Source of the DNA: Tautonia marina
GTDB lineage: Bacteria; Planctomycetota; Planctomycetia; Isosphaerales; Isosphaeraceae
Reading direction: 5' to 3'
Length of the DNA: 64,000 nucleotides
Assembly (NCBI RefSeq): GCF_009177065.1
Contig: NZ_WEZF01000015.1
Coordinates: 124,001 to 188,000, forward strand
Positions 2,193 through 53,109 of the stretch are shown here, one piece after another. Position 1 is the stretch's first letter, and each line of letters opens with the position of its first letter. The notes beneath the pieces were generated by a model, which was not told where the DNA came from, ran no database searches, and saw only the letters and a list, made by a program, of their open reading frames with translations. The position numbers and the translations under genes were made by a program.

Positions 2193-3017
2193 TCACCCGG
2201 TGCCGGGGGAGGCATCGCGCTGGCGGTCGCGGCGATACCAGGTCCAGAGCAGGCGGAGGGTGGTGGCGTCGAGCATGGCCTGGGAGGTCGGATAGGTACT
2301 CGGCTCAGCCTCTGGGGAGGGTCGGCCGAGCAGGGCGAGGGTCGAGTCGGTGATGGTGGCGGTGTCGGCCCGGGCGACCAGCTCGGCGAGGAAGATCGGG
2401 AAGTTCTCGACGGCGGAGGGGAGCAGGCGGTCGCCGAGGTCGCTGTAATTCATCTGGTCGGCGACGATTCGGAAGGCGATTTGGGGGTCGGTGCGGACCA
2501 GGTGCAGCTCGGTGACGGGGTCGCGGGGGACTCGCTTCGAACGCCGGGTGCGGGGGGGCTTCGGGCCTCGGAGGATCATGGCGTTGAGGCCCGAGGCGAC
2601 GGCGTTGGCCCAGCCGATTCCCTGGGGGTCGCGGAACTCGTCGTCGGCGGCGATCCGACCACCGTGGACCAGCTCCAGCTTCGACCAGGGGACGTAGTGG
2701 GCCGGCTCTCCTCGAAGTCCGCTGATGCTCAGCCCTTCGGGTTGAATGGCCGCGCGGTGGACCGATCGGGCGGGGACGAGCTTGGGCACGGTGTCGACGC
2801 GGCGGGCCTCGGCGGCGATCCCCTGGTCGTACAGGGCGTCGAGCAGTTCGCGGACCTCTCCTTCGGCCAGGGGCCAGGGGAGGATGCCGGGGGCGCGCTT
2901 GACCCACTGCATCGCCTCGGTCGGGTGCAGGCCCATGACCCCCCGGAATAGGTCGCGCAGGGCGTCCGGGTTCTCAGGAGCGTCGAAGAGGATCAGGCGG
3001 TAATCGGTTTCAGGCAT
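2193..3017 (-). CDS. Protein with N-terminal ribosomal L7/L12 C-domain-like fold
   Basis: This 274-residue cytosolic protein of unknown function has no signal peptide. Residues 4-72 resemble the C-terminal domain of ribosomal protein L7/L12 (and the related ClpS fold): a beta strand YRLILF, then helices containing LRDLFRGVMGLHPTEAMQWV, KRAPGIL and GEVRELLDALYDQG, and a final strand AAEAR. In L7/L12 this face binds translation factors; whether that holds here is unknown. The remaining 200 residues are not recognised; they hold a basic patch (PKPPRTRRSKRVPRD) and an acidic-aromatic C-terminal half. The ATG at 3017 is the only sensible start. It is divergent from the transporter gene. Confidence 0.75.
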   Translation of the reverse strand: MPETDYRLILFDAPENPDALRDLFRGVMGLHPTEAMQWVKRAPGILPWPLAEGEVRELLDALYDQGIAAEARRVDTVPKLVPARSVHRAAIQPEGLSISGLRGEPAHYVPWSKLELVHGGRIAADDEFRDPQGIGWANAVASGLNAMILRGPKPPRTRRSKRVPRDPVTELHLVRTDPQIAFRIVADQMNYSDLGDRLLPSAVENFPIFLAELVARADTATITDSTLALLGRPSPEAEPSTYPTSQAMLDATTLRLLWTWYRRDRQRDASPGTG

Positions 3018-3273
3018 GAGTGTTCGATCGCCTGGGCGATCCCCCGATCAGCGTGCGGGTCGATATGGAATTGAGCTTACGTCCTCGATGGTCCGACGGC
3101 CAGTGGTCACGGCTCCGCGAGGCGGTGGGCCAGCACCTCGACGCGAGGAGTCTGAGGGGGTAAAGTCCCGAATCAAGGACGGCTCGCGTGGAAGGGGCCA
3201 TCGAGACGAGACGATCTGCCAGGACGGTACGCGGCGAGCTGGGGCGAAACCAGAGCAGAAGGCTGGGCAACTC

Positions 3274-4629
3274 ATGGTGATGGCGATCTCTGCTTGGATC
3301 AAGCGAATCCTGGGCTCGCTGGGGCCGGGGCTGATTATTGCGTCGGTCTGTCTCGGTCCGGGCAGCGTGACGACGGCCTCGAAGATCGGGGCCGAATATG
3401 GGTATGCCTTGATCTGGGTGGTCGTGCTGGCGGCGGCGGCCATGATGATGTACACGGTCATGGGGGCCCGCTTCGGGGCGACGCAGGTTCGGTCGTTCTT
3501 GCAGGCGGTGGCCGATCGCTACGGGCGATGGTTCGCAGTCCTGATCGGCCTGGCGGCCTTCCTGATGTCGGCCAGCTTCCAGTTCGGCAACAACCTCGGG
3601 GTGACGACCGCGACGGCCAGCGTGACGGACAACTGGGCCTCGCGGAACCTCTCGGCCTTGCTCGGCCGGTCGGTGGCCGAGGAGCAGGTCTGGCCGTTCG
3701 TCTTCACCGGCACAGCGATCCTGATGGTCGCCTTCACGAAGAACCTCTATCGGCTGATTGAGCGGGTGATGATCGTGCTGGTGCTGATCATGATCGTCGC
3801 CTTCTTCACGAACCTGGTGGTGGCCCGGCCGAACCTGGCCGAGGCGGCCGCGGGGCTCGTCCCCCAGTTGCCGAAGGGAGACGGCACGATCACGGTGATG
3901 GCGGCGATGGTGGGGACGACGTTTGTCTTGCATGCCTGCCTCTATCAGTCGTACCTGGTGCAGTCGAAGGGGTGGCGGTTGCCGGACGTTCGCAAGAGCC
4001 TGATCGACTCGGTGGTGGGGATTGGCTTGCTGTCGACGATCAGCATCCTGATCATCCTGACCTCGGCGGCGGCCTTGCGGCCTCGGGGAATCGTGATCCA
4101 GGACGCGGCCGAGATGGCCCTGCAACTGGAGGCGACCTTCGGGCCGATGGCGAAGTTCATCTTCTGCCTCGGGTTCTGGGCGGCGGCCTTCTCGTCGATT
4201 CCGGTCAACGCCCTGGTGGGCGGGGGCCTGCTGGCCGACGGCCTGGGCCTCGGCTCTCGGATGGACCAGCCGTGGCCGAGGCGGTTCGCGCTGGGGATCA
4301 TGGTCATCGGCATGCTCATCGCCACGATGCCGCAGGAGAACCGGGCCAATGCCCTGGTGATCGCCCAGGCGGCGACGATGCTGGCAGTGCCGGCGGTCGG
4401 GATCGGCATGTTCCTGATTCTCAACGATCGGTCGATCATGGGGCGGTTTGCGAACTCGTGGCGTCAGAACATTTTGGCGGGCTTCGGCTTGCTGCTGGTG
4501 CTGGTCCTCTCGGTGGCGACCTACGGGCGGTTGATCGATCAGATCGGCAAGGTTCGGGAGCAGTGGCGAACGGAGCCGGCGGCGGTCGAAGCGCCGGTCG
4601 AGGTCGAACCGGCCAAGGAATCGGACTAG
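3274..4629 (+). CDS. Nramp-like divalent metal transporter homologue with altered metal-site motifs
   Basis: A 451-residue polytopic inner-membrane protein of about 11 helices in the Nramp (natural resistance-associated macrophage protein) fold. The N-terminus SLGPGLIIASVCLGPGSVT aligns with Nramp helix 1, and the helix 6 region reads VLHACLYQSYLV. The canonical helix-1 DPGN metal-binding motif is GPGS here (residues 28-31), and the helix-6 MPH is VLH (218-220), so the usual aspartate and methionine ligands are absent. Substrate specificity therefore cannot be assumed to be Mn2+ or Fe2+. The frame is open upstream to 3016, but the ATG at 3274 places helix 1 at the expected distance; the ATG at 3280 is an alternative. 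Confidence 0.85.
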   Translation: MVMAISAWIKRILGSLGPGLIIASVCLGPGSVTTASKIGAEYGYALIWVVVLAAAAMMMYTVMGARFGATQVRSFLQAVADRYGRWFAVLIGLAAFLMSASFQFGNNLGVTTATASVTDNWASRNLSALLGRSVAEEQVWPFVFTGTAILMVAFTKNLYRLIERVMIVLVLIMIVAFFTNLVVARPNLAEAAAGLVPQLPKGDGTITVMAAMVGTTFVLHACLYQSYLVQSKGWRLPDVRKSLIDSVVGIGLLSTISILIILTSAAALRPRGIVIQDAAEMALQLEATFGPMAKFIFCLGFWAAAFSSIPVNALVGGGLLADGLGLGSRMDQPWPRRFALGIMVIGMLIATMPQENRANALVIAQAATMLAVPAVGIGMFLILNDRSIMGRFANSWRQNILAGFGLLLVLVLSVATYGRLIDQIGKVREQWRTEPAAVEAPVEVEPAKESD

Positions 4630-4773
4630 GCGCGGGGGCCGGTTCCTGGCAGCATCCGCCGATCCCCTCTGGAGGAGGCGGCGTTCGACCGCCCGACGCT
4701 TCGTCGATGTCCGTTGAAGTCTGAAATCACCGACCCTCGCCGATCGAGGCGGGTCGTTGGGGGGCGAGTCTCC

Positions 4774-5061
4774 ATGCAGCGGTGCCCGATCCGTCTTGGC
4801 GTGGCGGTCGTCTGCCTTGTGCTGGCCACGAGTGCCTCGGGGTGCAACGCCCTCGGTCTCGGCAAGAACAAGGATGGCCAAGCCGACCAGCCGACATTCT
4901 ACGACGAGTTCTTCAGCGGTCAGGACGAGGCCGACGCGATCGCCTCCTCCAAGGAGCCCGACCCGGCGGCCCCGGCTCGGATGCACCGGCGGAACCGCTT
5001 GCCCGGCGGCCTGAGTTCCGAGGCTCGGGAGATCGAGCGAGGGTCGTTCAACATCTACTGA
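4774..5061 (+). CDS. Small putative lipoprotein
   Basis: A 95-residue protein with a signal sequence (residues 1-23) ending in TSASGC, a plausible lipobox although position -3 is Ala rather than Leu. The mature part is hydrophilic and charged, with GKNKDGQADQ, an acidic FYDEFFSGQDEADA segment and a basic RMHRRNRL patch. I recognise no family. The ATG at 4774 was preferred to an in-frame ATG at 4714 because it places the signal peptide at the N-terminus. It lies 145 bp after the transporter and directly before yraN, so it may be cotranscribed with them. Confidence 0.65.
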   Translation: MQRCPIRLGVAVVCLVLATSASGCNALGLGKNKDGQADQPTFYDEFFSGQDEADAIASSKEPDPAAPARMHRRNRLPGGLSSEAREIERGSFNIY

Positions 5062-5118
5062 GCCGGGGTGGTGGGACTCCGGAGCGTGCGGTCGAGGGGC
5101 CTTCGGGAGCGTGCCGGG

Positions 5119-5565
5119 ATGTTCCGACTTCGCCTCCCGAGGTGGCTCCGGAGTGGCCGGGAAACCGACCGGCCCTGGAACCAGTGGTTCGGCGACCGGG
5201 GGGAGCGGGCCGCGTCGAGGTACTTGCGCCGCAAGGGGATGCGGATTCTCTGCCGGAGCTACCGGACTCCGCGGGGCGAGATTGATCTGGTGGCCCGCGA
5301 GGGAGACACGCTCGTCTTCGTCGAGGTGAAGACCCGTCGCCAAGGGCAACCCGCCGAGGCCGTGACGCTGGAGAAGCAGCGCCGGATCACCCGAGCCTCG
5401 CTCCAGTTCCTCAAGTGGCATGGCCTGCTCGATGCGGCGAGGCCGGTCCCGTGCCGGTTCGACATCGTGGCGATCGTCTGGCCCGACGGCCTTGGCCGAC
5501 CGACCATCGAGCACTTCCCCGACGCCTTCGACGCCGCCGGGCCGAAGGGGCAGTTCTTCGTGTAG
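5119..5565 (+). CDS. YraN family (UPF0102) nuclease-fold protein
   Basis: A 148-residue protein of the YraN/UPF0102 family, which adopts a restriction-endonuclease-like fold. The diagnostic segments are GERAASRYLRRKGMRILCRSYR, then RGEIDLVAREGDTLVFVEVK, where Asp and the E-V-K triad match the PD-(D/E)XK catalytic pattern. The C-terminal half has KQRRITRASLQFL and CRFDIVAI, also typical. Biological function is not established, though a role in DNA processing has been suggested for the fold. The ATG at 5119 gives the usual family length. GTGs at 5068 and 5071 in the same frame would add 17 residues and sit right behind the upstream stop. Confidence 0.88.
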   Translation: MFRLRLPRWLRSGRETDRPWNQWFGDRGERAASRYLRRKGMRILCRSYRTPRGEIDLVAREGDTLVFVEVKTRRQGQPAEAVTLEKQRRITRASLQFLKWHGLLDAARPVPCRFDIVAIVWPDGLGRPTIEHFPDAFDAAGPKGQFFV

Positions 5566-6939: not shown

Positions 6940-9900
6940 TTACAGGTTCAGGTGCCCGGATCGAGCGAACAAAAGATCGACGCCGAGGGGGCTGGGGCCG
7001 CCGGCGCGCCGGGCGGCGAGGGAGGTGCCAGGGGCGGGAAGGGTGATGAGCTGGGTGAAGTTCGTCCCCGCGAAGCCGCTGCCGGCGAGGAAGGCGGAGG
7101 GGATGCCGGGTCCGGGCCGTGATTGCAGGCCCCCAGGAGCGCGGCCGACCAGCGTGAGCAGGAGGGATTGGCCGGGAGCGACCGGGGCGCTTGGGGTGAT
7201 CGAGAGCATCCGGGCCACCTCGTCATAGGAGACGGAGGCGATCGGGATAGGAGCGGCGCCGGTGGTGGTGGGCACGAGGGAGAAGTTGGCCAGGTTGAGG
7301 GTCCGGGCGGCATCGCGGCTGAGGTAGCCGTTGATCCGAACGTCGATCCGGGTCAAGGCGCCCGTGGTGGGATTGATGATGGGTGTGACCCGTTCGACGA
7401 ATGGGCCGGAGGCGATGGACCGGGTGCGGGTCTGGGCGGTGAGGTTGCCTCGGATGTCGTTGGTGGGGGTGATCGTGTTCGCGCCCTCGACCACCTGATT
7501 GAGGAACAGGCCCGAGCCGAGGCCGTTCGGGTCGGCGAAGCCGTTGCCGACGGTGCCGATCGCGCCGTTGATGTCGGGGCCGATTCGGTTCCCGGTCACA
7601 AGGTTGTTGATGGCATTGAATGCGGTGATGTTCAGACCGACCTGGGAATTCCCGCTAATCAGGTTGTCGGCAATGGTGTTGCCGGGGGCGTCGCTGAGGA
7701 AGATGCCCTGGAAATTCGGCAGGCGGGCGGTGCCGGCGGCGTTGGTTCCCACGCGGTTGCCGGCCACGATGTTGCCCGTGCTGACCGAGCCGACGGCCGG
7801 AGGGTAAGGGACGATCTGCGGGCCGGTGGGGGTGACGACGGTGACGGCGTTGACCGTGTCGGCGTTGAGGATCTGGAGGCCGACCTCGCGGTTGCCCGAG
7901 AGCAGGTTCCCGCCTCCGTTCGGGTCGGAGAACGAGCCGAGGCCGATCTGGTTGCCGGAGGCGCCGTAGAGGAAGATTCCCTGGCGGTTGCCGATCGCAG
8001 TGGTGCCGGTGGCGTCGGTGCCGATGAAGTTCCCGGCGACGAGGTTGCCGGAGGTCGGGGCGCGGGGCTCGTCGAAGGCGATGCTCGTGAGGCGGAGGCC
8101 GACTTCGAGGTTGCCGGAGATCAGGTTGCGTGCCGCCGGGCCGGTGCCGCCGATGATGTTGTTCGAGGTGTTCATGAGGATGACGCCGTCGCTGTTGGGC
8201 ACGGCGGCCGATCCATCGCGGTTGGTGCCGATCCGGTTCCCTTGCAGCACGTTGCCGGCGGCCTGGCCTCGGATGTAGACGCCGATCCGGTTGCCGGAGA
8301 TGACGTTCCCCTGGCCGACTCCGGTGCCGCCGATGGTGGTGTTCGAGGCGCCGTCGGCAATGACGATGCCGTCGTTGCGGGGGTCGAACGTCAGGCGGTC
8401 GCTCGCGCCGGGGGTGCCGTCGTCGGGGGTGGTGGGCAGCCCCGTTTGCACGTTGCCGGCGCGGGGGTCGAGCGATCGGGAGCCGGTGCGGTCGGTGCCG
8501 ATGAAGCTGCCGGAGACGCGGTTGCCGGAGCTGCCGGGGCCGTCGATCCGGAGGTTCCCCCGGCCATCGACCACGCCGTTGGCGGCAATCACGGAGTTGA
8601 GCACCGTGTTGCCGGGAGCGTTCAGGAGCAAGACGCCGACCAGACGATTGCCGAGCGCGGCCTCTCCACCGGCGTTGGTGCCGATGAAGCTGTCGGCAAT
8701 CACGTTGCCGGTGCCACCGACCAGGGCGACCCCGAAGCCGCGGTTGCCGGAGACGACGTTGCCTTGCAGGGCCATGTTCGACGGGCCGGCGACGATCACA
8801 CCGCTGCCCTGGTTGGAGAGGGCGGCCGAGCCGTCGCGGTTGGTGCCGATGAAGTTGCCGATCAGGACCGTGTTCGACCCCTGGGAAATGGCCATCACCC
8901 CGTTGCCGAGATTGCCTGAGATGACGTTTCGTTCCAGGCGGTTCGACGCGGCATTGTCGAGGAAGACGCCGTCGCGCTGGTTGGCGATGGCGAACTGACC
9001 GGTGCGGTCGGTGCCGATGAGGTTGTCGATCAGGGTGTTGCCGTCGGAGCCGTCGCGCAGTTCGACGCCGAACAGGCGGTTCCCGGACAGCACGTTGGCC
9101 GACAGGGTATTGTTCCGGGCGCTGAGGACCATCACGCCGTGGAGGTTGTTCGGCCGGGCGGCGGTGCCCTGGCGGTTGGTGCCGATGAGGTTGCTTGTCA
9201 AGAAGTTCCCGGAGGTTCCGGCGAGGGCGACGCCGAAGCCGCGGTTGCCGCTGATGGCGTTGGAGTCGAGCGAGGTGGTGTTGGCGTTGACGATGAGGAC
9301 GCCGCTGAGGTTCGGCCGGGCAAGGGAGCCGGTCGGGCCGGCGAGACCGATGAGGTTCCCGGACAGGGTGTTCCCATTCGCGCCGTTGAGGACGACGACG
9401 CCGTCGTTGCGATTGCCGGAGATGACGTTGCCGGCCAGAACGTTGTCGGGGGCGGCGTCGAGCAAGACGCCTCGGGTGTTGCCGAGGCCGTCGAGGCCGG
9501 TTTCATCGGTGCCGATGAGGTTGCCGTCGATCAGGTTCCCCGAAGCGGCGGCGCCGATGACCTGGAGGCCGTCTCCGGAGTGCCCGGCGATGAGGTTTCC
9601 GTCCTCGACCCGGTTGTTCGGGGCGTTGAGGATCACCAGGCCGACCTGCTGTGTGCCGAGGCCAGCCGTGCCGGCGAGGTTGGTGCCGATGAGATTACCG
9701 GAGACGACGTTTTCCGAGGCCGAGCCGCCGGCGATTGTCAGGCCGAAGACGCCGTTGCCGGAGATCAGGTTCGACCGGCCGCCGATGGTGTTGCGGGGCG
9801 AGTCGGAAATGCGAACGCCGGTCCCGGCATTGCCTCGCGCCGCCGTACCGCCGACATTGGCGCCGATGACATTGCCCGAGACGAGGTTCTCGAACGCTCC

Positions 9901-12798
9901 GGCGGCCAGAACGACCCCGTCTCCTCGGTTGCCGGAAATCAGGTTGCCGGAGCCAGTCACGTCTCCGCCGACGCGGTTGGCCGAGGCGCCGTTGAGGATC
10001 GTCACGCCGTTGGCGGCATTGCCGAGGGGGGCGTCTCCGGTGGCGTCGAGGCCAATGACGTTACCGGCGATCTGGTTGTTCGAGGCCCCCGAGCCTTGCA
10101 GCAGGATGCCCGACCCGCCGTTGCCGGAGATGATGTTGCCGTCGGCCGGTTGCACCCCACCGATGGCGTTGTTGCCGGCGTTGACCAGCAGGATGCCGTG
10201 GCCGGCGTTGCCTCGGTTGTTCAGTCCGAGGTCGTCGGTGCCGATCCGGCTCAACTGGATCACGTTGTTCGAGGCACCGGGACCGATCAGGGCGATGCCG
10301 GAGCCGCCGTTGCTGGAGACGACGTTGCTGGCCAGGGTGTTGGCCGAGGCCCCCTCGACCCGGACCCCGTCGCCAGCGTTGGGCACGGAGGTCGCCCCGA
10401 CGGGGCCGAGGCCGATGAAGTTGCCGGTCACGAGAGTGTCGGTGGTGCCGTTGCCGGTCAGGTGAACGCCGTGGCCGAGGTTGCCGGAAATCACGTTCCC
10501 CGCGCCGATGGTGTTGCCTGGCGCGTTGCTCAGGAGCACCCCAACGGCGTTGCCGATCGGCGAGAGGCCGGAGACGTTGGTGCCGATGAAGTTGCCGAGG
10601 GCGGTGTTCTCCGAAACCGCCTCGCCCTGGAGCAAGAGGCCCGGCCCGGTGTTGCCGGAGAGGAGATTGCCGCGTCTCAGCCCGGCGGTCGTGGCGTTGG
10701 CCCCGCCGATGGTGTTGCCGGTGATGAGGCCGGCGGAATCGGAGTCGCCAATCAGGGCGATGCCCGCCCCGCCGTTGCCGATGGGCAGCGATCCCGAGGG
10801 GTTCGTGCCGACGAAGTTCCCGGAGATGACGTTCGAGGCACTGGCGGCGTTGTTGCCACCGGGTTCGTTGAGCAGCGTTGTCAGGCGGATGCCGTCGCCG
10901 CCGTTGCCCGAAACGAGATTGCCCGAGCGGAGCGTTCCGGGACTGATGCTGACGTTTTCACCGCCGATGGTGTTGTTCGACGCCCCTTCGAGCAGGATGC
11001 CGTGCCTCGTGTTGCCGATCGGGCTCGATCCGTTGGCGTTCGTGCCGATGAAGTTGCCGAGGATCGCGTTGTTCGAGGTTGGCCCGCCGTAGAGCAGGAT
11101 GCCATTGTGGCCGTTGCCGGAGATGAGGTTCCCCGCGGTGCGGACCCCACTCGCCGCATTCACGCCGCCGATCGTGTTGGAGACAGCGCCAAGAAACTGA
11201 GGGGTTCCGCCGACATTGACCAGCCCGGCATTGAGCCGAACGCCGTTCTCGGTGTTCGGCACGGCGGATGAGCCGTTGGCGTTGGTGCCGATCAGGTTCC
11301 CCTGGACGACGTTCCCGGAGGAGGCACGCTCCAGTTCGATGCCGTCGCTACCGTTGCCGGAAATCAGGTTGCCGGCCCCGGCCGCCGCGCCGCCGATCGT
11401 GTTGTTGAGGCCGCCGTTGACCTCGATGCCGTCTTCCTGGTTCGGAATCGCGGCCGTGCCCAGGGCGTTGGTGCCGATCCGGTTCCCCTGGATGGTGTTG
11501 TTCGCCGCGCCGGCGTTGGCGAGCAAGATGCCGTCTCCCCGGTTGCCGGAGATGAGGTTCCCCAGGCCGGGGCCGGTGCCGCCGATGGTGTTGAAGGTGG
11601 CGTTGTTGATTTCGATGCCGGTATCGATGTTCTCCAGCGCGATCGTGCCGGTGACATCGACGCCGACGAAGTTTCCGGCGACGAGGTTGCCGGTGGTGCC
11701 CGGTCCCTGAATGCGGATGCCGTCGCCGCCGTTGTGGGCGATCAGGTTGCCGGCCGAGAGGACAAAGGGGGTGGTGTTCGCGCCGCCGATGGTGTTGTTG
11801 ACCGAAGCCTGGTGGAGCCGGACGCCGAGGAACTCGTTGCGTAAGGGGTTGACGCCGTCGACGGCCGTGCCGATGCGGTTGGCGGCGATCAGGTTGGCAT
11901 TGCCCGAGCGGACCTCGACGCCGTTGATGCCGTTGCCGGAGATCAGGTTGCCGAGGTTCGCCGTCAGGCCACCGAGGGTGTGGCCCGAGCCGCCGACAAT
12001 CTGGACGCCGTGGCCATCGACCCCGAGGTTTTCGTCGCGCATGGCGACCAGGCCCGAGCGGTCGGTGCCGATGAAATTCCCTTGCACGACGACGTTCTGG
12101 ACCGCGTCGAGCAGAATGTTGTCGGTGTCGTTGCCGGCAATGACGTTGCCGATGGTGCCAAGCACGAAGGGAGCCGAGAGCGGGCCGCCGATTCGGGCAT
12201 TGCTCGCGCCGTTGGTCACGGCGACGCCGCCGCCGAGGTTCGGTTCGGCCGTGGTTCCGGAGGCATCGACGCCGATGTGGTTCCCCTGAAGGATCGCCCC
12301 CGACGCGGCCGCGCCGGTGATCAGGACGCCCGGGCCTCGGCTGCCGACGATCGCAAAGGACTGGATCGTGACATTCGGGCCGGTGATTCGGATCGTGTTG
12401 TTGGCCACGCGGTCGCCGTCGATGGTGAGCACCGGCACGTCGGAGAAGCCGTCGCCCGTGGTGCCGTCGAGGACCACGGGCACGGTCAGATCGGGCAAGC
12501 TGCCGACCAGCGTGATCGACCCACTCAGGCCGTTGAAGACAATCCGGTCGTCGTCGCCAAAGAGACCGGTGGTGTTGGCGAGGATGTCGGGGTTGGCCGT
12601 GCCCCCGGCGTTGATGGCCTCGATGGCCGATCGCAAGGTGACCTCGCCGGGGATGGGGGCGAGCGCATCGGTCAAGGTCGTGACCTGGATCGTCGCCAGC
12701 AGGGCGCGCCGCTCCATCGGCTCGACGGCCAACGGCATTCCCCGTGCTCCCCGACGACGGAACGATGCCCGAACCACTCGACGACCCTGTCGACTCAT
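6940..12798 (-). CDS. Giant parallel beta-helix cell-surface protein
   Basis: A 1952-residue exported protein. The N-terminus MSRQGRRVVRASF..MPLAVEPMERRALLA carries the planctomycete extracellular-protein signature. It is followed by a start module, TLRSAIEAINAGG..PDILANTT..DDRIVF, typical of right-handed beta-helix 'CSLREA' proteins. The bulk is about 25 imperfect copies of a 60-75-residue unit with the core N(V/L)ISGN..DGV.L, N.I.GN.IGTN..G, characteristic of NosD/pectate-lyase-type helices. The C-terminal 150 residues are a separate Ig-like region (IDVRINGYLSRDAARTLNL). It probably forms a long rod at the cell surface for adhesion or carbohydrate contact, but no catalytic residues are evident. 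The ATG at 12798 was chosen because it places the signature at the N-terminus; the open frame runs to 12951. Confidence 0.85.
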   Translation of the reverse strand: MSRQGRRVVRASFRRRGARGMPLAVEPMERRALLATIQVTTLTDALAPIPGEVTLRSAIEAINAGGTANPDILANTTGLFGDDDRIVFNGLSGSITLVGSLPDLTVPVVLDGTTGDGFSDVPVLTIDGDRVANNTIRITGPNVTIQSFAIVGSRGPGVLITGAAASGAILQGNHIGVDASGTTAEPNLGGGVAVTNGASNARIGGPLSAPFVLGTIGNVIAGNDTDNILLDAVQNVVVQGNFIGTDRSGLVAMRDENLGVDGHGVQIVGGSGHTLGGLTANLGNLISGNGINGVEVRSGNANLIAANRIGTAVDGVNPLRNEFLGVRLHQASVNNTIGGANTTPFVLSAGNLIAHNGGDGIRIQGPGTTGNLVAGNFVGVDVTGTIALENIDTGIEINNATFNTIGGTGPGLGNLISGNRGDGILLANAGAANNTIQGNRIGTNALGTAAIPNQEDGIEVNGGLNNTIGGAAAGAGNLISGNGSDGIELERASSGNVVQGNLIGTNANGSSAVPNTENGVRLNAGLVNVGGTPQFLGAVSNTIGGVNAASGVRTAGNLISGNGHNGILLYGGPTSNNAILGNFIGTNANGSSPIGNTRHGILLEGASNNTIGGENVSISPGTLRSGNLVSGNGGDGIRLTTLLNEPGGNNAASASNVISGNFVGTNPSGSLPIGNGGAGIALIGDSDSAGLITGNTIGGANATTAGLRRGNLLSGNTGPGLLLQGEAVSENTALGNFIGTNVSGLSPIGNAVGVLLSNAPGNTIGAGNVISGNLGHGVHLTGNGTTDTLVTGNFIGLGPVGATSVPNAGDGVRVEGASANTLASNVVSSNGGSGIALIGPGASNNVIQLSRIGTDDLGLNNRGNAGHGILLVNAGNNAIGGVQPADGNIISGNGGSGILLQGSGASNNQIAGNVIGLDATGDAPLGNAANGVTILNGASANRVGGDVTGSGNLISGNRGDGVVLAAGAFENLVSGNVIGANVGGTAARGNAGTGVRISDSPRNTIGGRSNLISGNGVFGLTIAGGSASENVVSGNLIGTNLAGTAGLGTQQVGLVILNAPNNRVEDGNLIAGHSGDGLQVIGAAASGNLIDGNLIGTDETGLDGLGNTRGVLLDAAPDNVLAGNVISGNRNDGVVVLNGANGNTLSGNLIGLAGPTGSLARPNLSGVLIVNANTTSLDSNAISGNRGFGVALAGTSGNFLTSNLIGTNRQGTAARPNNLHGVMVLSARNNTLSANVLSGNRLFGVELRDGSDGNTLIDNLIGTDRTGQFAIANQRDGVFLDNAASNRLERNVISGNLGNGVMAISQGSNTVLIGNFIGTNRDGSAALSNQGSGVIVAGPSNMALQGNVVSGNRGFGVALVGGTGNVIADSFIGTNAGGEAALGNRLVGVLLLNAPGNTVLNSVIAANGVVDGRGNLRIDGPGSSGNRVSGSFIGTDRTGSRSLDPRAGNVQTGLPTTPDDGTPGASDRLTFDPRNDGIVIADGASNTTIGGTGVGQGNVISGNRIGVYIRGQAAGNVLQGNRIGTNRDGSAAVPNSDGVILMNTSNNIIGGTGPAARNLISGNLEVGLRLTSIAFDEPRAPTSGNLVAGNFIGTDATGTTAIGNRQGIFLYGASGNQIGLGSFSDPNGGGNLLSGNREVGLQILNADTVNAVTVVTPTGPQIVPYPPAVGSVSTGNIVAGNRVGTNAAGTARLPNFQGIFLSDAPGNTIADNLISGNSQVGLNITAFNAINNLVTGNRIGPDINGAIGTVGNGFADPNGLGSGLFLNQVVEGANTITPTNDIRGNLTAQTRTRSIASGPFVERVTPIINPTTGALTRIDVRINGYLSRDAARTLNLANFSLVPTTTGAAPIPIASVSYDEVARMLSITPSAPVAPGQSLLLTLVGRAPGGLQSRPGPGIPSAFLAGSGFAGTNFTQLITLPAPGTSLAARRAGGPSPLGVDLLFARSGHLNL

Positions 12799-13057
12799 CG
12801 CTGTTTCCTCAATCGTTGCAACCGTTCCGTTCGCCGGAGTCCCCCCTGTCGTTGGCGTGCCGAGGACAGGGCTCTGCCCTCGATCGGCCGGCCTTCGGGG
12901 ATCGGTGTCGCTCCACGCTAGCAGGCAAGCACGCACGAACGCAAGAAGCATCGTCTCGTGCCCCGGTGTTGGAGGCGCGGGCGACAGTCTCTCACGTCCG
13001 AATCACTTTCGCAAGTGCCCCAGGTTACCGGAAGAAGGGCGAATCAGGGGGGCTGGT

Positions 13058-53020: not shown

Positions 53021-53109
53021 CGGAGAGGGGGGGATTCGAACCCCCGATACCGGTTTCCCAGTATAACGGTTTAGCAAACCGTCGCTTTCAACCACTCAGC
53101 CACCTCTCC
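53021..53109 (-). tRNA. tRNA-Ser, anticodon GCT
   Basis: An 89-nt class II tRNA on the minus strand. The acceptor GGAGAGG pairs with CCTCTCC, the D-arm begins GGCTGAGTGG, and the anticodon loop TTTGCTAAA is within a CGG/CCG-type stem and gives GCT, reading AGC/AGU. A long variable arm (TACTGGGAAACCGGTA) is diagnostic of Ser, and the T-arm is GGGGGTTCGAATCCCCC. CCA is not encoded. All arms fold without mismatch of note. Confidence 0.97.

Follow-up and report, generated by a model that had tools for sequence, protein, structure and literature searches.

A GPGS-type Nramp-family protein of Tautonia marina as a candidate carrier of an organic solute

What does a transporter of the Nramp fold carry when the ligands by which its family binds metal have been replaced? 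This question is raised by a gene located at positions 3274–4629 on the forward strand of a 64,000-nucleotide stretch of the Tautonia marina genome (contig NZ_WEZF01000015.1; the whole stretch is hereafter called the window), the product of which carries GPGS in helix 1 in place of the metal-binding motif DPGN. An earlier sequence-only reading had suggested that the protein may belong either to an Nramp branch that has moved to ions such as Mg2+ or Al3+, or to a new branch. The second proposal came nearer the mark. Mg2+ or Al3+ transport is not favoured, because the NRMT and NRAT signatures include an Asp in helix 1, a position held by Gly in all 90 collected relatives of the window protein, and because many operon partners in the clade are enzymes of organic-acid, sugar or amino-acid metabolism. 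We consider it probable (approximately 0.6) that the protein carries an organic solute, probably a carboxylate, rather than a free divalent metal ion. This reading is based on the loss of the ligands for the metal and the proton path, together with the recurrent operon links to organic-metabolism enzymes in relatives, and our confidence in it did not change after near-identical copies had been merged and recounted. A sugar acid, a keto acid or an N-acylated amino acid is the most likely substrate.

The open reading frame (ORF) consists of 451 codons and a stop codon, with the coordinates, strand and frame that the sequence-only reading had given; the start may be 3274 or 3280, because the sequences of two of the three congeners lack the first two residues. 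Residues 32–396 match the Nramp family (PF01566) at 228.1 bits (expect value (E) 2.1e-67, cut-off 29.8), and an AlphaFold2 model obtained from an alignment of 46 sequences (mean predicted local distance difference test score 90.6, predicted template modelling score 0.88) has DraNramp as its top PDB fold (6d91, Z 47.2, root-mean-square deviation (rmsd) 2.4, 391 residues aligned), in agreement with the earlier claim that the rest of the fold is kept. EleNRMT (7qji) is matched at Z 41.6. Outside the Nramp family, the closest folds are those of AdiC (Z 30.7), AgcS (30.2), CHT1 (28.1) and ApcT (27.9), matches that show a shared fold only. The gene is present in the genome of the window and in the three other genomes of the genus searched (80–96% identity; 82% in Tautonia sociabilis), with ratios of nonsynonymous to synonymous substitution rates (Ka/Ks) of about 0.08, 0.21 and 0.28 against these congeners, and the flanking genes are conserved in all three downstream and in two of the three upstream. 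Carriage by all four genomes at such Ka/Ks values means that the gene is not an error or a chance variant. In the 21 other genomes of the family that were searched, the best matches to the protein are 25–31% identical.

In an alignment with DraNramp, D56, P57, G58 and N59 correspond to G28, P29, G30 and S31 (GPGS, residues 28–31, positions 3355–3366, + strand), and M230, P231, H232 and H237 correspond to V218, L219, H220 and Q225 of the helix-6 segment TTFVLHACLYQSY (residues 215–227, positions 3916–3954, + strand), in which V218-L219-H220 replaces MPH. The substitutions of GPGS for DPGN and VLH for MPH recognized in the sequence-only reading are thus confirmed, as is the loss of the Asp, Asn and Met ligands; His (H220) alone stays. 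That reading had also raised the possibility that an alignment shift might reveal a normal DPGN. No shift restores one, and a canonical Nramp misread in this way was rejected. The replacement extends beyond what had been described previously, to helix 3 (QFGNN, residues 103–107, positions 3580–3594, + strand), where Q103 and N106 lie at D131 and E134 of DraNramp. In helix 8 (SSIPVN, residues 307–312, positions 4192–4209, + strand), S307, S308 and N312 are near-invariant in the clade.

These substitutions characterize a whole group of proteins. The typed rows were sorted by helix-1 motif, so that the motif is invariant in them by construction; its invariance was taken instead from a first collection of 90 sequences chosen by protein kinship, all of which contain GPGS. 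Since the scan patterns required GPG or QxxNN, GPG was partly selected for, and Ser was in no pattern. For the other columns, rows at least 97% identical were merged, leaving 93 GPGS, 22 DPGN and 29 GTGS sequences, and these merged counts were used in place of the row totals of the tree tests (110 GPGS, 7 DAGG and so on), which include the same gene fetched twice. Among the 93 GPGS members, N106 is found in 92 (one gap) and Q103 in 91, counts on which the use of QxxNN in one search pattern bears; Q225 is found in 88, Y227 in 89, and S307, S308 and N312 each in 92 (one gap). The Met column of helix 6 holds Val, Ser or Ala in 85, and the helix-6 His is kept in 24 and is therefore not a feature of the clade. 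In the 22 DPGN rows, by comparison, the columns of N106, H220 and Q225 hold Glu, His and His without exception and that of Q103 holds Asp in 20. Their helix 8 has S307 in 21, S308 in 22 and N312 in none; the Ser pair is thus usual in canonical proteins too and does not decide on the coupling ion. The acidic residues kept in at least 90% of the GPGS clade are E163, D245 and D322, of which the first two are also kept in DPGN rows; at the third position, DPGN proteins have Gly, NRMT proteins Glu and GTGS proteins Asp.

In a maximum-likelihood tree built from 73 sequences that represent the helix-1 types encountered, these groups separate, with supports of 100/100 for DPGN, 99/82 for NRMT-like DAGG, 100/100 for GTGS, 100/99 for GPGT and 100/97 for GAGD. 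The GPGS proteins form a clade (25 of the 73 rows, 100/100) once a single GPGN row is included. Forcing the window protein and its T. sociabilis counterpart together with the seven DPGN rows was rejected by the approximately unbiased (AU) test (p-AU = 0.00037), and judged by its sequence the GPGS protein is separate from canonical Nramp, as the sequence-only reading had expected such a tree to show. A single clade of all GPGS/GPGN and NRMT rows was not rejected (p-AU = 0.10), although the free tree keeps them apart, and on these sequences GPGS and NRMT may be sister groups. The scan of named genomes yielded 254 confirmed relatives, the best 80 of which are the 80 GPGS loci analysed here; they come from KSB1, Bacteroidota, Planctomycetota, Verrucomicrobiota, Hydrogenedentota, Nitrospiraceae and others, and haloarchaeal members were added from plasmid records. 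A search of 296 Bacteroidota genomes with the window protein yielded only four matches at E 1e-50, including that of the centre genome itself, and such proteins are therefore rare there. The window protein falls, apart from other Planctomycetota, into a nine-row set with KSB1 and Bacteroidota (100/99), the inner order of which the tree leaves open. This placement suggests horizontal transfer of the gene into the genus.

The second line of evidence comes from the gene neighbourhoods of the relatives. Gene calls were our own open-frame picks, and same-strand neighbours within 150 bases, present at 61 of the 80 GPGS loci, were counted as operon members; the single-linkage neighbour family F0, which also caught stray Nramp fragments, was not used for operon counts. 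The order met most often, in Bacteroidota and their close relatives, runs from Nramp through an M20 deacylase, where present, to an SDR-like Rossmann protein and a DHDPS-family protein. In all, SDR-like proteins were counted 15 times, DHDPS 12, M20 deacylases 9 and one GNAT family 6 times, in several lineages. A Pfam analysis of 139 of the 160 neighbours (the 21 left out are mostly longer than approximately 575 amino acids, and three are short) gave DHDPS 15, M20 9, GNAT 9, HPPK 8, Gfo/Idh/MocA 7 and PanB 6, as well as xylose-isomerase-like proteins 4, PhyH 3 and aldo/keto reductase 3; these counts refer to the best 25 of 97 families, and other transporters may lie outside them. Near some of the SDR/DHDPS loci lie genes for SusD, a BNR/sortilin-like protein, Gfo/Idh/MocA dehydrogenases or an NagX-like protein. 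Other GPGS neighbours are aminotransferases, MTTB/MtaB and an aldo/keto reductase.

In Planctomycetota, locus L113 contains a weakly enolase-like protein (MR_MLE_C, 18 bits, below the cut-off), PhyH, a creatininase-like protein and GNAT, and locus L104 contains a xylose-isomerase-like TIM barrel, GNAT and an esterase; the TIM-barrel and GNAT families of L104 recur at L108 and all three families at L112. A row of Nramp, PhyH, creatininase, GNAT and SDR is found in genome G025. Three haloarchaeal GPGS copies adjoin Gfo/Idh/MocA genes, one of them also near heparinase II/III and a sulfatase and one near an amidohydrolase, and the GPGN copy of Neorhizobium follows a DHDPS gene and lies beside a LacI-type regulator. 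As a control, neighbours of DPGN and NRMT genes were analysed. Thirteen of the 21 canonical DPGN loci have no same-strand neighbour in reach, and the ten control neighbours scanned (nine distinct; L117/L193 and L119/L194 each denote a single locus that entered the control twice) comprise two GNAT proteins, an FAD oxidoreductase, a PA domain protein, Usp, an ABC-2 permease, a protein kinase (the same gene twice), EamA and an amidotransferase-phosphoribosyltransferase, none of which is a sugar-acid gene; the flanks of the DPGN controls were shorter (mostly 1.5 kb) and the gene filter differed from that of the GPGS set. Two side observations were made at these loci: a single protein family, whose L217 member is a DUF1501 protein, occurs near SDR/DHDPS genes at L217, L218 and L220 (Planctomycetota), and at L193, in a genome of Planctomycetota, a gene for a Ser/Thr kinase bearing a long TPR array comes after the NRMT-type gene.

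The SDR and DHDPS genes also link these operons to the genome of the window. Homologues of both (48–54% and 60–61% identity) are adjacent in all four genomes of the genus; in that of the window they lie at C27:28501–30696 (SDR 54%, DHDPS 61%). When 40 relatives were searched with both proteins (thresholds E 1e-40 for SDR and 1e-50 for the GPGS Nramp), nine had both, two the GPGS protein only, six the SDR only and 23 neither (Fisher p = 0.0007), and the association was also seen by genus (5/2/6/21, p = 0.024) and outside the own genus (p = 0.018), in tests that ignore relatedness. The profile match of the DHDPS-type protein is modest (41.9 bits). Its presumed Schiff-base lysine is present in all 13 aligned rows (AIK in 11, AVK in 1 and ATK in 1), and the partner is therefore likely, as judged from its family, to be an aldolase or lyase with a keto acid as its substrate. 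The epimerase-like SDR and this DHDPS-type aldolase, which are encoded elsewhere in the genome, are the probable partner pathway in the genus of the window.

A neighbouring group of non-canonical proteins is the GTGS clade of Bacteroidota. A GTGS query found matches in 20 of the 296 Bacteroidota genomes at E 1e-45, with up to four per genome, and the Nramp-family matches reach six and eight in two GTGS-bearing genomes, one of the eight being a fragment. The column of Q225, which is His in canonical proteins, holds Arg in all 29 GTGS rows. Among 87 neighbours of up to 620 amino acids (best 25 of 46 Pfam families), we found glucuronate isomerase UxaC once (654 bits), Gfo/Idh/MocA 8 times, GH2 7, xylose-isomerase-like proteins 7, GH88 4, KDPG/KHG aldolase 4, SDR 4, PfkB 3 and C5-epimerase 3; a GarL-like aldolase and a LarA-like racemase also occur near GTGS genes. 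Much of this gene context is uronate and sugar-acid catabolism, and a conserved Arg predicted to lie close to the site is difficult to reconcile with transport of a cation. The clade also makes the substrate question directly testable, with its invariant Arg and one member (L174, Maribellus) beside a glucuronate isomerase gene.

A third type occurs on haloarchaeal plasmids. The GPGT genes of Haloferax mediterranei (L273:5983–10838) and Haloarcula marismortui (L277:5995–10823) have hydantoinase/oxoprolinase A and B genes directly 3′, a layout that is, by analogy, like that of pxp operons. Published genetics is in line with an organic substrate: PxpT, an Nramp-family protein of Corynebacterium glutamicum, is needed for growth on 5-oxoproline, and its authors do not exclude metals (PMC13274462). 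Among the ten plasmid loci opened, the Pseudoalteromonas (GPGT) and Haematobacter loci had no telling neighbour, and an NRMT-type copy on a Serratia plasmid adjoins a magnesium transporter gene.

These observations allow a mechanism to be outlined. The window protein would be a secondary transporter with the Nramp (LeuT-like) fold, translocating a small organic solute by LeuT-type alternating access, with the substrate held at the broken helices 1 and 6. In the amino-acid carriers of the APC superfamily, the GxG loop of helix 1 binds the carboxylate of the substrate. The unwound GPGS loop may similarly offer its backbone amides to a carboxylate, and the remainder of the substrate would be bound by N106, Q225 and Y227, with S307, S308 and N312 near by. 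In GTGS proteins, the Arg at the Gln225 column might pair with the acid.

Several findings weigh against an organic substrate. The window gene stands alone, without a metabolic operon; the next genes, kept in the three congeners, are by eye a lipoprotein-like ORF and a YraN-like ORF. The SDR/DHDPS operons are confined to one part of the tree, that of Bacteroidota and near kin. The KSB1 copies, which are the nearest by path, adjoin rhodanese and DoxX/MauE genes, and some lie across from an aspartate-alanine-exchanger gene. Verrucomicrobial copies are located in a housekeeping row (dapA, dapB, folK, panB and moaC) that supplies part of the 15 DHDPS matches, and two GPGS copies lie next to LarC, a gene for nickel insertion. 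The control set of neighbours is small, and its nine distinct proteins include the two GNAT proteins and the FAD oxidoreductase. Five of the 87 GTGS neighbours are SSF symporters; another carrier is therefore at hand in some of these operons and could be the real one. The strongest points in favour of a metal are the lack of a canonical Nramp in the genome of the window, the kinship to NRMT and a report on YcsG, a homologue of PxpT that is claimed to be an Mn2+ importer and to raise cellular Mn2+ (PMC10448178). The family search of this genome returned no DPGN Nramp, whereas 17 of the 21 other family genomes have one, so that the GPGS protein may possibly replace a metal importer; the two other Nramp-family proteins found in the genome are of the GAGD type (G000:C19:4013–5188), beside a gene that is UbiD-like by eye, and of the GTGE type (G000:C21:118195–119403). 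As a side observation on the 17 genomes with a DPGN protein, 15 of the 17 frames are 639–704 amino acids long, and in the two long frames that were read, the C-terminal stretch resembles by eye a universal stress protein domain.

How far do these points favour other explanations? A carrier of Mg2+ or another hydrated divalent ion, in which water would bridge the ion to S31, N106, Q225 and backbone carbonyls in the manner of EleNRMT without its Asp, appears unlikely. It would account for the missing canonical Nramp and the two LarC neighbours, and it agrees with the top sequence match in the PDB, to the Mg2+ transporter EleNRMT (7qia; E 6.9e-25 with the window protein and 4.6e-42 with the GPGS profile as query), with the p-AU of 0.10 for a single clade with NRMT and with the finding that EcoDMT altered toward NRMT residues still carried Mn2+ (PMC8806188). 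However, Gly replaces the helix-1 Asp shared by canonical and NRMT proteins in 90 of 90 relatives, and 92 of 93 members have Asn at the position of the helix-3 Glu. Both the NRMT signature (DxxG-TxxA/T) and the NRAT signature (DxxN-AxxT) keep that Asp (PMC8806188). The window protein departs from the former by Gly for Asp, Ser for Gly and Val in the Ala column, with the helix-6 Thr kept (T215), and from the latter by the absence of both Asp and Asn from GPGS. LarC aside, the commonest neighbour families are organic-metabolism or housekeeping enzymes. Furthermore, Rfam returned no M-box in the nine of the 80 GPGS loci scanned or in the window, where no riboswitch was matched and the sole match at gathering level is a tRNA gene (53021–53109, − strand); no metal operon was seen around the gene by eye among the ORFs of the window, the neighbours of which were not scanned with Pfam.

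Cotransport of an organic acid and a metal ion, or transport of a complex of the two, would reconcile the operons with the reported Mn2+ effect of YcsG, which is described as an Mn2+ importer although its gene belongs to the 5-oxoprolinase operon and an earlier link to the use of 5-oxoproline had been made (PMC10448178, PMC13274462). We regard this as improbable: GPGS proteins have no acidic ligand left for a metal, and the transfer of findings on YcsG to the GPGS clade is loose. An Nramp-like domain has a sensor or scaffold role in plant EIN2, and a role of this kind without transport might be considered for a protein that has lost the canonical ligands and whose gene is standalone in the genus. 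Against this very doubtful possibility, only 19 residues follow the last predicted helix, leaving no long signalling domain, and the near-invariance of polar residues in helices 1, 3, 6 and 8 across several phyla is what a working site would be expected to show. For a decaying or chance variant without function we found nothing in favour, and the intact frame, the low Ka/Ks values and the conserved flanks described above make it extremely improbable. Carriage of an organic solute remains our preferred reading.

If this reading is extended, several Nramp branches (GPGS, GTGS and perhaps GPGT and GxGD/E) would be organic-acid carriers, and the metal transport of SLC11 would be one specialization among them, a view that we advance tentatively and at somewhat less than even odds. 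GTGS proteins might then serve uronates or keto-deoxy products, GPGS proteins another carboxylate that feeds an SDR/DHDPS-aldolase route, and haloarchaeal GPGT proteins a hydantoin- or oxoproline-like acid, and the wider family would move organic anions through its GxG helix-1 loop. In any case, the GPGS clade is real, conserved and informative: within a known family, it is a branch whose class of substrate has probably changed. Should entire branches prove to carry organic acids, the origin of metal selectivity in SLC11 would have to be told differently, the dispute over YcsG (Mn2+ or 5-oxoproline) could be viewed across the family as a whole, and a candidate for the inner-membrane carrier would become available for some operons of polysaccharide degradation. 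Many annotations would also be wrong: of the 46 rows in the plasmid listings for two non-canonical queries, which have some loci in common, 44 are annotated as 'Nramp family divalent metal transporter', one as 'divalent metal cation transporter' and one has no annotation.

Two further features of the window were noted. An antisense ORF of 834 amino acids (3010–5514, − strand) runs through the transporter gene and looks like a shadow frame in GC-rich sequence. At 6940–12951 (− strand), an ORF of 2003 amino acids consists of repeated GN-x-IGT/NLISGN units and resembles by eye a right-handed beta-helix protein that is secreted or located on the surface.

Proteins related to Nramp have been discussed in several previous studies. 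Those that lack DPGN, MPH and the proton-path residues are described as diverse and paraphyletic (PMC12873925), and Nramp-related 'orphan' proteins serve as an outgroup (PMC10606218); the string 'GPG' is absent from the main text of both papers. Shin et al., who named NrmT, noted a possible link of the outgroup to carriers of substrates other than metals (PMC4072509), and a 2026 preprint considers Nramp-related sequences 'thus likely metal transporters' (PMC13060092). A figure legend lists 'Nramp, metal-ion transporter' among the alginate-cluster genes of Alteromonas 76-1 (PMC6431674). With PxpT and its role in growth on 5-oxoproline, the literature already contains an organic-acid Nramp relative. 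The claim of an organic-acid Nramp was not found in the literature on polysaccharide utilisation, uronate, organic substrates, alginate lyase or sugar acids, in a search that left subscription journals mostly uncovered, and neither the GPGS clade with its SDR/DHDPS link nor the GTGS/uronate clade was found in the literature searched.

Compared with known systems, the window protein shares with canonical Nramp/MntH proteins (DraNramp, BfraNramp and SLC11) the fold, the residue Q365 and the helix-8 Ser pair, but D56, N59, M230, D131, E134 and H237 are all replaced, and it belongs to a separate clade. EleNRMT and the other NRMTs are the closest solved relatives by profile, with a similar fold and likewise no methionine. 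They differ in the helix-1 Asp (DAGG) and APW in helix 6, where the window clade has GPGS and TTF...YQxY, and in the M-box of a subset of NRMTs, which none of the nine scanned GPGS loci has. By description, namely the lack of DPGN, MPH, D131 and E134, the window protein fits the 'orphan' set of Nramp-related proteins. PxpT and YcsG are likewise Nramp-family proteins of organic-acid operons. The integrative model of YcsG (9a52_A) matches the window model at Z 38.2, rmsd 4.8 and 15% identity, a likeness of fold, and a GAGD-type query for YcsG among PDB sequences returned only EleNRMT, NRAT and BfraNramp. The GTGS clade resembles the GPGS clade in its GxGS helix 1 and in the lack of an acid at the site columns, but is distinguished from it by the Arg at the Q225 column, by its context of uronate catabolism and by forming a clade of its own.

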